From a virus, in the IMG/VR virus record IMGVR_UViG_3300028115_000120, positions 1-23,364 of that record: a stretch of 23,364 nucleotides of DNA. One strand, 5' to 3'. Below the pieces are notes generated by a model. The model saw nothing but the letters and a program-made list of their open reading frames with translations, did not search any database and was not told the DNA's origin. The position numbers and the translations under genes are program-made. The first letter of the stretch is position 1; every line of letters begins with the position of its first letter. Below, piece by piece: positions 6,798-22,166 of the stretch.

Positions 6798-7604
6798 TTA
6801 CTTGACACGACCCTCTGCATATGCCGCCATGATCTCATCACTTAAGGCTTGATAACGCTTAGGGTCTGTTTGCATTAGTTTAATAATATCAGCACGTCGA
6901 TAGATTTTACGACTTGGTGACTCTCCTGATCCTTTCGCATTACCAGTTGAAGCTGACTTCAATTGGCGTTTACGATCAGTCTCTTGCATATCAACAGTTT
7001 CTTTAACTAAGTTTTGACGTTCTTTCCACAACGTGAGAAGTTCATCAGCACTATCATAATCAAACTTTTGATCTGCTCGTTGGTACAATTCAGTACGCAC
7101 TTTAGATTTAGCAACCCACTCACCAAACTTTTCATCTTGAATAATCTCTCGAAAGTCAGGATGATTAGATTGTAGTTTGTTGAAAATCTCTGCTTGTTTC
7201 ATCTGACGAGAAAGCTCTTCAGCTTCCTTAATCTTTGGATGATTAGCAAGTTTGTTATCAATGTACTTATCAGGATCGTCAAAGATGTCAAAGTCTTCGA
7301 CAGTTTCTTGTGGGCTATTCTTGGCTTCTATCTGTGTCTTAACGAAATCATCAACTATCTTACGGAGTTCTCCGACCTCTGAAGATTGTTTACCTAAAAG
7401 TTTCTCAGCCTCTTGATGCATCCGGACAATATCCTTAATGTCCTTACCCTGATACTTTTCAGGAATATCATCTTCTTCTTGGGCTTCTTGAATCTCTTCT
7501 GGTTCTGCAGGTTGTTCCTCAATAGGAGTCTGCTCTTCTTCAACAGGTGAGTATTCTTCTCCGTCCTCTAGTTCTTCGGGACTTACATCTAAAAAACGTG
7601 CCAT
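6798..7604 (-). CDS. Capsid scaffolding protein
   Basis: A 268-aa, highly charged, mainly helical protein immediately before the major capsid gene. The N-terminal 45 residues are very acidic and Pro/Glu-rich (EELEDGEEYSPVEEEQTP). Residues about 48-90 contain KYQGKDIKDIVRMHQEAEKL, a segment typical of scaffold proteins in T7-like marine phages, followed by predicted coiled coil. The C-terminal part is basic (RKIYRRADIIKLM, DPKRYQALSDEIMAAYAEGR), as expected for the region that contacts coat subunits. It would direct procapsid assembly and then exit. A GGAG lies 9 nt before the ATG. No protease motif is seen. Confidence 0.8.
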   Translation of the reverse strand: MARFLDVSPEELEDGEEYSPVEEEQTPIEEQPAEPEEIQEAQEEDDIPEKYQGKDIKDIVRMHQEAEKLLGKQSSEVGELRKIVDDFVKTQIEAKNSPQETVEDFDIFDDPDKYIDNKLANHPKIKEAEELSRQMKQAEIFNKLQSNHPDFREIIQDEKFGEWVAKSKVRTELYQRADQKFDYDSADELLTLWKERQNLVKETVDMQETDRKRQLKSASTGNAKGSGESPSRKIYRRADIIKLMQTDPKRYQALSDEIMAAYAEGRVK

Positions 7605-7639
7605 ATTGTTAAACTCCGTGCCGTAGCATTATGGATATG

Positions 7640-7849
7640 TTATTGTCTAGCGGCTCTTTCGTGATCCTTAGCCCACGCATCATCGGCATCAGGCCAACCT
7701 GAACCTTTGAAATGTGTTCGGACACTAGAGATTATCCGCTGTGCGGTGTCACCACATTCAGGACAAGTTGCAAATAGATCGTTAGAATCTACCCATTGTT
7801 CTTCAATATGTTGACAGTTGGTACATTTGAAATCATATCGCCTAAGCAT
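7640..7849 (-). CDS. FmdB-like zinc-ribbon protein
   Basis: A 69-aa protein starting MLRRYDFKCTNCQHIEEQW. Two CxxC knuckles (C9/C12 and C28/C31, in KCTNCQ and TCPECG) form a single zinc ribbon of the FmdB/regulatory type, followed by QRIISSVRTHFKGSGWPDAD, a typical tail for that family. The start at 7849 was preferred over an in-frame start at 7873, because 7873 would give a 32-nt overlap with the upstream gene while 7849 gives 8 nt (AATGCTTAG). It lies just before the scaffold gene; similar small zinc ribbons occur near head genes in other marine podoviruses. Its function is unknown; a nucleic-acid or protein-binding role is only a guess. Confidence 0.7.
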   Translation of the reverse strand: MLRRYDFKCTNCQHIEEQWVDSNDLFATCPECGDTAQRIISSVRTHFKGSGWPDADDAWAKDHERAARQ

Positions 7850-8075
7850 TCTCAGACTCCATGTCAAATGCATTTTTTATTCCAGTTTCAAAGCGTACAA
7901 TGTTTAACAATGCTGTACGTTGTCCTTGCAAAAGGAATAATTCTTTTTCACTCTTGATATCTTCAATGATATGTGTATCAAGAGTTTCTTGAGCTTCTTC
8001 TACGAATTGTTTCCAACCCGGATGTAAAAATAAGTCAAGATAAATTTCATAATACTTTTCTTCTTCAGGACTCAA
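7842..8075 (-). CDS. Small conserved phage protein of unknown function
   Basis: A 77-aa acidic helical protein (LSPEEEKYYEIYLDLFLHPG near the start, DIKSEKELFLLQGQRTALL in the middle). The TTG at 8075 was chosen as start because ACAGGAGA lies 7 nt before it. The longer frame beginning at the TTG at 8102 would start upstream of the transcription start predicted from the promoter at 8105-8133. It is the first gene of the scaffold/capsid/fibre operon. Similar small proteins occur beside portal genes in marine podoviruses (recollection). No catalytic motif is visible; it may be a minor head-assembly factor. Confidence 0.7.
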   Translation of the reverse strand: MSPEEEKYYEIYLDLFLHPGWKQFVEEAQETLDTHIIEDIKSEKELFLLQGQRTALLNIVRFETGIKNAFDMESENA

Positions 8076-12901: not shown

Positions 12902-12943
12902 TGGCATGGTTGTTGCATGGCGAAAACTGGCACGATTCTTGAT
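12902..12943 (+). promoter_or_regulatory. Two tandem sigma54-like -24/-12 elements
   Basis: Element 1: TGGCATG-N4-TTGCA (12902-12917) differs from the consensus TGGCACG-N4-TTGCW at one base. Element 2: TGGCACG-N4-TTGAT (12928-12943) has a perfect -24 part but TTGA in place of TTGC at -12. They are 26 bp apart and both point toward the 174-aa gene. Sigma54 promoters need an enhancer-binding activator; none is encoded nearby. Confidence 0.45.
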
Positions 12944-13052: not shown

Positions 13053-13130
13053 GATATATACAATGAAACTAACATGCTCCAAACACGGTCTAACCTAACA
13101 AGAGCGCAATACCGCGTCTCGAATCCAGAG

Positions 13131-13146
13131 TTTAAGCATACTTAAA
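13131..13146 (+). repeat. 16-bp palindromic leader element, copy 1
   Basis: TTTAAGCATACTTAAA: inverted half-sites TTTAAG/CTTAAA around CATA. It ends 12 nt before the ATG of the 174-aa gene, just upstream of the GAGG ribosome-binding site. An identical copy lies at 13708-13723. Confidence 0.8.
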
Positions 13147-13158
13147 GAGGTAGTAAAA

Positions 13159-13683
13159 ATGGATATCAAAACGCATGTAACAAAAATGGCATCTGCTCTG
13201 AAGAGTCAGCAGACAGCAGGCATTAAGACTGTTGGTGTTCTGAAGGCATTCATCAATGAGGCCACATTAGGCGATGCACTGATTCAGAACTACATTGATC
13301 AAGTCCAAGAACAGGCGATTGCGAAAGGGGTTCTTAAATCATCATCGGCAACGATGAAGTCTCAAATCAAGAAAGTCCTTAAACTGGCAATGACGCATAA
13401 AGAGGATGTGATTAAACTGGCAGAAAATGCGGGCAATTTAGACCAGTGGTATAAAGCCTGTCTAGACGCTAAAGATCCGAGCAGGAATAAAACGCATAAG
13501 GTTAACAAGCCGAAAGCGCAAGACCTACCGAAACTTCAGGATGAAGCGAAAGAACCGAGCGAAGTGACCAGTCCGATCGATCAATTCAAGACGGCATTGC
13601 GAGCGATGCTTGATTCGGGAATGACGATGCATCAAATACAGACGATCATCGCTCAAGAGATCGAGGTCGCGAAAGCGGCCTAA
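13159..13683 (+). CDS. Early protein of unknown function (174 aa)
   Basis: First gene of the plus-strand block, with its own leader element, a GAGG site 9 nt before the ATG, and an intrinsic terminator 4 nt after its stop. I do not recognise the family. The sequence suggests a helical N-terminal domain (about 1-105, Lys-rich: LKSQQTAGIKTVGVLKAFI, MKSQIKKVLKLAMTHKEDV), a basic/Pro linker (NKTHKVNKPKAQDLP) and a short helical C-terminal segment (about 138-174, DQFKTALRAMLDSGMTMHQI). Basic linker plus helical domains suggest a nucleic-acid or host-protein binder, such as an early host-takeover factor or regulator. No enzymatic motif is seen. Isolated transcription and high expression signals are seen; function is inference. 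Confidence 0.75.
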   Translation: MDIKTHVTKMASALKSQQTAGIKTVGVLKAFINEATLGDALIQNYIDQVQEQAIAKGVLKSSSATMKSQIKKVLKLAMTHKEDVIKLAENAGNLDQWYKACLDAKDPSRNKTHKVNKPKAQDLPKLQDEAKEPSEVTSPIDQFKTALRAMLDSGMTMHQIQTIIAQEIEVAKAA

Positions 13684-13686
13684 TCT

Positions 13687-13710
13687 GGAGGGGCGAAAGC
13701 CCCTTCTTTT
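13687..13710 (+). terminator. Intrinsic terminator after the 174-aa gene
   Basis: An 8-bp stem GGAGGGGC/GCCCCTTC (one G-T pair) with a GAAA tetraloop, followed by TTTT. It isolates the first gene from the following cluster, although the short T-run may allow readthrough. Confidence 0.8.
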
Positions 13711-13723
13711 AAGCATACTTAAA
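13708..13723 (+). repeat. 16-bp palindromic leader element, copy 2
   Basis: Identical TTTAAGCATACTTAAA, overlapping the terminator T-run and ending 13 nt before the GTG of the next gene, directly upstream of AAGGAG. Placement relative to the start codon is the same as for copy 1. Confidence 0.8.
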
Positions 13724-13736
13724 AAGGAGTACATTT

Positions 13737-13850
13737 GTGGATACACTTGTGACATTGTTTGTGATTTCATTTGTGGCCTTTATGTTGGGCACAGGTGGTT
13801 GGTTGTTCAAGAGTATATGGGAATTGATAACAGGAGAAGATTGTGAATAG
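13737..13850 (+). CDS. Micro membrane protein (37 aa)
   Basis: A GTG start preceded by AAGGAG at 8 nt. The protein has one predicted transmembrane helix (about residues 3-24, LVTLFVISFVAFMLGTGGWL) and a short acidic tail (ELITGEDCE). It is too short for standard gene callers but has an excellent ribosome-binding site and overlaps the next small gene by 8 nt. It probably acts in the inner membrane early in infection. Function unknown. Confidence 0.6.
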   Translation: MDTLVTLFVISFVAFMLGTGGWLFKSIWELITGEDCE

Positions 13851-21099: not shown

Positions 21100-21409
21100 G
21101 CTACAGCAGTGGGCGCGTGACCAAGTTCTCGATGTGTATCCCCATCTGGAGGAGGATGATGTTAGAAGTACAAGCATGGGTGTTAGTGGCAGTGATCTTC
21201 AACTTAGCCCTTTGGCTCGCAAGTCTTTCCCGTTCGATGTCGAATGCAAGTCGCTTGCGAGAGTTGGAGTCTATCGTTTTATTGACCAGTGCAACAATCG
21301 AGGCGATGCACAGCCACTTGTCATCGTTAAAGAAAACAGAAGAAAGCCTTTAGCTGTTGTTGATGCAGAGTATTTCTTTGAACTATTGAAGAAGGTTAAG
21401 CATGATTAA
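21065..21409 (+). CDS. PD-(D/E)xK endonuclease / resolvase-like protein
   Basis: A 114-aa protein starting at GTG 21065 (with GGAG 8 nt before it), preferred to ATG 21044. It begins VKTQSAKAKGRKLQQWARDQ. Asp 44 (SGSD) and E60-x-K62 (DVECKS) form a PD-(D/E)xK-type site; the preceding VRSTSMGVSG and following LSPLARKSFPF are typical of small nuclease proteins next to the exonuclease in T7-like marine phages. It could resolve branched DNA or trim host DNA. An assignment to T7 gp3 endonuclease I is not certain. Confidence 0.7.
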   Translation: MKTQSAKAKGRKLQQWARDQVLDVYPHLEEDDVRSTSMGVSGSDLQLSPLARKSFPFDVECKSLARVGVYRFIDQCNNRGDAQPLVIVKENRRKPLAVVDAEYFFELLKKVKHD

Positions 21410-22166
21410 ACATATGGTCATACCTGACACGCAAGTAAAACCTGATCATCCAATTGATCACTTGCGTTGGGCAGGAGAATATGCCGTAGATAAAAAGCCT
21501 GATGTGATCATACACATTGGTGACCACTTTGATCTACCTAGTCTATCAACGTATGATGTCGGTAAGAAATCGTTTGAGGGCAGACGCTACGTCAACGATA
21601 TCAACTCAGGCATCGAGGCTATGCAAGAGTTCCTTGATCCTATTCGTAAGGAACAAGAGAGGCTCAAGCGTAACAAGGACAAGCAGTGGAACCCTCGCAT
21701 GGTATTCACACTTGGTAACCACGAGTACCGTATTGCTCGTGCTATCAACGCTGACCCTAAACTAGACGGACTGATGTCCTTTGATGATTTATATTTAACA
21801 GAGATGGGATGGGAGGTGTATGATTTCTTACAGCCTGTGGTCATTGATGGTGTGTGTTATAGCCATTACTTTGTTAGTGGTGTTATGGGAAGACCAGTAA
21901 GTTCCTCTAACGCACTGTTGAACAAACAGCATATGAGTTGTGTCATGGGTCACGTACAGGATCGTAGTATCTCCTACGCTAAACGTGCTGATGGTAAGCG
22001 CATCACTGGATTGTTTGCAGGAATCTATTATCAACATGATGAGGACTACTTGAACCCGCAGACTAACGGATCATGGTCTGGTATCTGGATGTTGCATGAA
22101 GTCTTTGAAGGTACGTTCGATGAGATGCCAGTGTCAATCAACTACTTGAGGGAGAGGTATGCCTGA
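21402..22166 (+). CDS. Calcineurin-like metallophosphoesterase
   Basis: A 254-aa phosphoesterase. Motifs: D9-T-Q (MVIPDTQ), G40-D41-x2-D44 (HIGDHFD), GNHE (about 107-110) and GHVQD (about 186-190) are the metal-binding stations of the calcineurin-like superfamily. Substrate cannot be read from sequence; DNA, nucleotides or protein phosphates are possible. The same gene lies between nuclease and nucleotide genes in other marine podoviruses. It overlaps the previous gene by 8 nt and the next by 8 nt. Confidence 0.85.
   Translation: MIKHMVIPDTQVKPDHPIDHLRWAGEYAVDKKPDVIIHIGDHFDLPSLSTYDVGKKSFEGRRYVNDINSGIEAMQEFLDPIRKEQERLKRNKDKQWNPRMVFTLGNHEYRIARAINADPKLDGLMSFDDLYLTEMGWEVYDFLQPVVIDGVCYSHYFVSGVMGRPVSSSNALLNKQHMSCVMGHVQDRSISYAKRADGKRITGLFAGIYYQHDEDYLNPQTNGSWSGIWMLHEVFEGTFDEMPVSINYLRERYA

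Follow-up and report, generated by a model that had tools for sequence, protein, structure and literature searches.

A 16-bp palindrome and a 174-residue early protein as a candidate operator-regulator pair in an uncultured HMO-2011-like phage and its relatives

The operators and stoperators of cluster A mycobacteriophages, such as L5 and TipsytheTRex, are asymmetric sites of 13 bp that occur more than 20 times per genome (PMC9283540). Their binder is a small phage-encoded protein (183 aa in L5) that acts as a monomer and carries an N-terminal HTH; the orientation of the sites follows transcription, and a bound site halts transcription elongation (PMC9283540). The element-protein pair described here most likely resembles this system in its manner, by analogy, and not as a member of it. 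Like the cluster A stoperators, the element occurs several times in a genome, both in promoter regions and within short gaps between genes (two to three in the window, six in the contig G013 and five in G011). This is in contrast to the cluster A sites in that the element is a 16-bp palindrome of few copies, with a slight polarity only in the variants of the MDIK group, and the 174-aa candidate binder possesses no detectable HTH. Furthermore, the cluster A mycobacteriophages are temperate, whereas the scan of proteins from the window phage detected neither an integrase nor a CI-like gene.

Operators of the P22 c2/CI type (XRE), the consensus of which we take to consist of TTAAG-type half-sites, are palindromes of a length similar to that of the element. 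In the P22-like immunity region of an isolate's unrelated prophage (G010, L064; reverse-complement coordinates 7251-8075), an identical core, TTAAGCATACTTAA, is flanked by P22_Cro-like and CI-like genes and is also observed as a pair 21 bp apart; its location between such genes makes a sequence of this kind plausible as a DNA operator. Unlike P22-type operators, the element is not accompanied by adjacent divergent CI/Cro genes among the window proteins scanned, and in contrast to the lambdoid OR/OL clusters its copies are scattered along the early region beside ribosome-binding sites.

The window, i.e., the whole stretch of 23,364 bases that was analysed, represents a podovirus-like genome, in which the structural genes occupy the - strand left of 12.6 kb and the rightward genes include primase-helicase, DNA polymerase A, a gp2.5-like protein, exonuclease, RusA, metallophosphoesterase and RNR. 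The portal is closest to those of HMO-2011-like phages (~25% identity), and the primase shares up to 55% identity with that of Pelagibacter phage HTVC115P. The source is an uncultured, marine-type phage of the HMO-2011-like kind. Scans of proteins from the window and from G001, an overlapping relative of 35 kb, detected neither an RNA polymerase nor an integrase, and the window proteins scanned include no CI/Cro pair and no HTH protein. A strong sigma70-like promoter (TTGACA-17-TACAAT, 11/12, with TG before the -10) at 12679-12651 on the - strand points at the leftward terminase and structural genes. The divergent intergenic region further contains, on the + strand and 26 bp apart, two sigma54-like -24/-12 motifs, TGGCATG-GTTG-TTGCA at 12902-12917 and TGGCACG-ATTC-TTGAT at 12928-12943, of which the former is retained by nearly all relatives in the window's group, at -246 to -292 of the 174-aa gene. 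Such motifs are unusual in phage, and a literature search for sigma54 promoters in such phages found no paper; they could alternatively constitute a packaging or other site.

The preliminary description of this DNA had reported an identical 16-bp element at two positions, 12-13 nt before start codons and ahead of the ribosome-binding sites, and both copies proved to be exact (Table 1). GAGG lies in the 12 nt between copy 1 and the ATG of the 174-aa gene, and AAGGAG in the 13 nt between copy 2 and the GTG of the 37-aa gene. The dyad of TTTAAGCATACTTAAA comprises 7 of 8 possible base pairs, with the arms TTTAAG/CTTAAA and the centre CATA rather than CATG. There is no third exact copy in the whole record. 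When up to three mismatches were allowed, 7 matches were obtained in the window against 0.24 expected, a count that includes both strands of palindromes. The occurrence of two copies is far beyond chance.

Table 1. Features of the window associated with the palindromic element.
Feature	Coordinates	Strand	Support
Hairpin in the leader before copy 1 (GAGCGC...GCGTCTC)	13102..13120	+	Structure kept, sequence changed in relatives
Copy 1, TTTAAGCATACTTAAA, in the leader of the 174-aa gene	13131..13146	+	Conserved there in all window-group relatives having the gene
174-aa early gene, first rightward gene, product proposed to bind the element	13159..13683	+	Family alignments
GNRA-loop hairpin directly before copy 2, GGAGGGGC-GAAA-GCCCCTTC	13687..13706	+	Terminator-like in the window phage
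Copy 2, TTTAAGCATACTTAAA, between the 174-aa stop codon and the 37-aa Shine-Dalgarno site	13708..13723	+	Exact match
37-aa gene after copy 2	13737..13850	+	Orthologs after copy 2 in relatives
Candidate third site, GTTAAGCATGATTAAA, over the RusA stop and the metallophosphoesterase start (ATG 21402)	21395..21410	+	Three mismatches

The hairpin that copy 2 abuts is real and is followed by TTTT, three of which are letters of the palindrome. Its earlier designation as a terminator is insecure, because it is absent from the list produced by the terminator scan of the window and because G014 and G016 carry a different hairpin before copy 2 that lacks a T run. The division of the region into two consecutive transcription units is likewise unproven, and copy 2 could lie within a single operon. 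The promoter scan detected no sigma70-like promoter for a separate second unit at copy 2. No sigma70-like -35/-10 pair was found at the element itself either. The product of the 37-aa gene is hydrophobic and, by inspection, looks like a small membrane protein. We also note that a block upstream of copy 1, GTCTAACCTAACAAG at 13088-13102 (+), is alike across all aligned relatives and is a possible -10 region or other regulatory site.

The candidate third site recurs at the same place as GTTAAKCATGMTTAAA in G001, G002, G005 and G014. Coding constraint may partly account for this conservation; the RusA reading changes there from K to N and from D to A. The site is retained, as a candidate only, because all of its variants obey the half-site code.

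A search of viral_contigs with the 174-aa protein returned 12 contigs encoding homologs of 100% to 34% identity. These contigs were found through the protein alone and not through the site, and the element precedes the homolog in every one of them (12/12); it also precedes the next gene wherever the contig extends that far. The half-site is TTAAKYAT, and the variants are mostly symmetric, with both halves changed alike (GTTAAGCATACTTAAC, TTTAATCATGATTAAA and ATTAATCATGATTAAT), while some combine two half-site types, e.g., GTTAAGCATGATTAAC. An extra site is located ~80-125 bp upstream of copy 1 in G003-G006, G014 and G017, that of G017 carrying one additional central base. Altogether, the element accounts for 40 sites in 14 dereplicated contigs, which are related, so that the sites are not 40 independent events; the pattern TTAAKYATRMTTAA gave 0.000 matches in order-1 Markov shuffles of each contig. 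All sites are confined to the rightward early/replication half of the genome or its border. In 7 of 9 genomes, the core variant of copy 1 is also that of copy 2 (permutation p 0.024), an agreement that serves as supporting evidence only, since the genomes are related; G009 and G002 each contain two different core variants within one genome.

Conversely, every contig in viral_contigs with at least two exact copies of TTTAAGCATACTTAAA encodes a protein of the 174-aa family. Elsewhere in viral contigs, the 16-mer occurs in single copies, most of which were attributed to chance, as they possess neither a Shine-Dalgarno context nor a homolog, and L099/G018, which likewise lacks both, was set apart. 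Relatives of the same gene order strongly support the earlier suggestion that the two copies are a shared regulatory site in a fixed position; copies at unrelated coding sites and absence from relatives of that gene order were both looked for, and the outcome favours the suggestion. No homolog of the 174-aa protein was found in genome_contigs, and hence no host is indicated from that set. Among isolated phages, neither a tblastn match to the protein nor a DNA match was obtained, and HTVC115P, HMO-2011, MW202701, CRP-9 and HTVC104P (50 kb each, examined by HMM and by a search for repeated palindromes) yielded neither a homolog nor a repeated palindrome.

A scan of the collection for the site pattern with a Shine-Dalgarno site and a start codon after it identified G011, G012, G013 and G017. 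For three of these, G011, G013 and G017, the site was the means of discovery, and the homolog of the 174-aa protein that each encodes was recognised afterwards. G011 and G013 belong to a second, more distant phage group, of which G012 is a fragment, and in both the first rightward gene encodes a distant homolog (hhalign probability 91%, E 1.2e-6). The 31.5-kb contig G013 contains GTTAATCATGATTAAC five times and one copy with an extra central base, for six sites, whereas G011 has five copies, one with a changed end. The contigs with at least two exact copies of GTTAATCATGATTAAC in viral_contigs are G011, G012 and G013, and the homolog is encoded by G011 and G013. In both of the latter, the promoter predicted for the homolog itself has a site 14 nt ahead of its -35. 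Other sites are found in gene leaders that have a sigma70-like promoter ~14 to 60 nt upstream, in a gene junction of ~30 nt, and in the gap from the RNR stop codon to a terminator; the promoters and the terminator in these two contigs were read by eye. At positions 13571 of G013 (GTTAATCACTGATTAAC) and 5138 of G017 (GTTAAGCAGTGCTTAAC) in the reoriented contigs, the half-sites are kept and the spacing is increased by one central base.

The AlphaFold model of the 174-aa protein displays an all-helical N-terminal domain (residues 1-109; pLDDT 83, pTM 0.71), followed by a low-confidence, predicted disordered linker and two C-terminal helices. Members of the family repeatedly match PF13102, PF13495 and PF14659 (Phage_int_SAM_3/4/5) in register over residues ~20-86, with best E values of 0.0017 and 0.0022, all of these matches being below the Pfam gathering cut-off; the window's own protein has no Phage_int_SAM match in the Pfam search. 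Two members also match a PHROG integrase family weakly. The SAM-like domains of tyrosine recombinases bind inverted-repeat DNA. The 174-aa family resembles these domains in its predicted helical nature and in the sub-cut-off matches of several members; in contrast to tyrosine recombinases, it has no catalytic domain, carries separate C-terminal helices, and no structural match was found. Foldseek/VIA searches of both the full model and the N-terminal domain gave no convincing fold, integrases being absent from the rows, and sequence searches of the PDB with the protein returned nothing meaningful. No significant HTH match was obtained in the family, and sub-threshold Pfam matches to Dna2, YppG, CsgF and Sulfatase_C were dismissed as chance. 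The SAM-like matches are taken as a lead towards a DNA-binding function and not a statement of family membership.

The position of the element beside Shine-Dalgarno sites raises the question of whether it acts as DNA or as RNA. As many as 29 of the 40 sites precede a Shine-Dalgarno-like sequence by 0-10 nt, even where a predicted promoter is 50-60 nt upstream, and a translational mechanism would explain this placement too. The element would then be a 5'-UTR hairpin through which the 174-aa or another protein controls translation, and the asymmetric variants of the MDIK group, which always have the canonical half-site 5', agree with such an RNA operator, as does the element hairpin predicted wholly or partly in 6 of 9 copy-2 contexts. 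Against it, the predicted RNA folding energy of most variants is 0 to -1.3 kcal/mol, several sequences that are perfect palindromes as DNA form no fold at all, and the hairpin is predicted in just 3 of 11 copy-1 leaders. The TTAA arms are invariant, and hence show no compensatory change, in contrast to the neighbouring hairpin just upstream of copy 1, which retains its structure despite sequence change in nearly all relatives. In most variants the dyad extends through the centre (CATG), which is unexpected for an RNA loop, and the half-sites TTAAGCAT and TTAATCAT occur mixed. The invariant arms, the full-dyad centre and the weak RNA folding favour recognition of duplex DNA. Sites ahead of a -35, or in the gap from a stop codon to a terminator, also disagree with an RNA operator, which we regard as unlikely; the translational control proposed earlier is disfavoured in the form of an RNA hairpin, but the constant closeness to Shine-Dalgarno sites leaves it some probability. 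With copies at these two kinds of location in relatives, and with no phage RNA polymerase found among the proteins scanned, the further suggestion that the element is part of a phage-specific promoter is not supported. That the element is simply an AU-rich enhancer or spacer, aiding ribosome binding from directly upstream of good Shine-Dalgarno sites, is very improbable in view of its palindromic symmetry, its concerted variation and the copies in G003, G004, G014, G011 and G013 that lie away from any ribosome-binding site.

The identity of the binder may be questioned separately, since the core within the P22-like prophage immunity region is accompanied by CI/Cro-type HTH genes and presumably resembles the half-sites of P22 c2. 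A host regulator or another phage-encoded one could, by this account, recognise the element in place of the 174-aa protein. Multi-copy contigs are observed only in phages that have the 174-aa family or belong to their group, no HTH protein is found among the window proteins scanned, and the HMO-2011-like isolates searched contain neither partner; a different regulator appears unlikely as well. We infer the 174-aa protein to be the candidate binder because its gene co-occurs with the sites and because the sites vary in concert.

Our preferred reading, to which we assign a probability of roughly 0.6, is that the element serves as a palindromic operator in DNA, built from the half-site TTAAKYAT, to which the 174-aa protein binds as a dimer, with autoregulation and lowered early transcription as the consequences. 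The 174-aa protein, the product of the first rightward gene, would accumulate; its dimer would occupy the site in its own leader, resulting in autoregulation, and would also occupy the sites at downstream gene junctions. There, the bound protein would probably act as a roadblock or repressor and reduce early transcription in a stoperator-like manner. The two sites with one extra central base, in G013 and G017, count against the dimer model, because a rigid dimer would tolerate such an insertion badly.

We know of no described regulator for the HMO-2011-like kind of phage. It is conceivable, although doubtful at present, that small proteins related to the core-binding (SAM-like) domain of tyrosine recombinases, but devoid of the catalytic domain, serve as early regulators by acting as dimeric roadblocks at palindromic junction sites. 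They would then constitute a palindromic stoperator system of probably lytic podoviruses, for which no RNA polymerase of their own and no lysogeny genes were detected. The site and the protein stay together through strong divergence, and, if the proposed operator function is true, the pair would represent a new DNA-binding family and provide the first regulatory wiring map for these uncultured phages.
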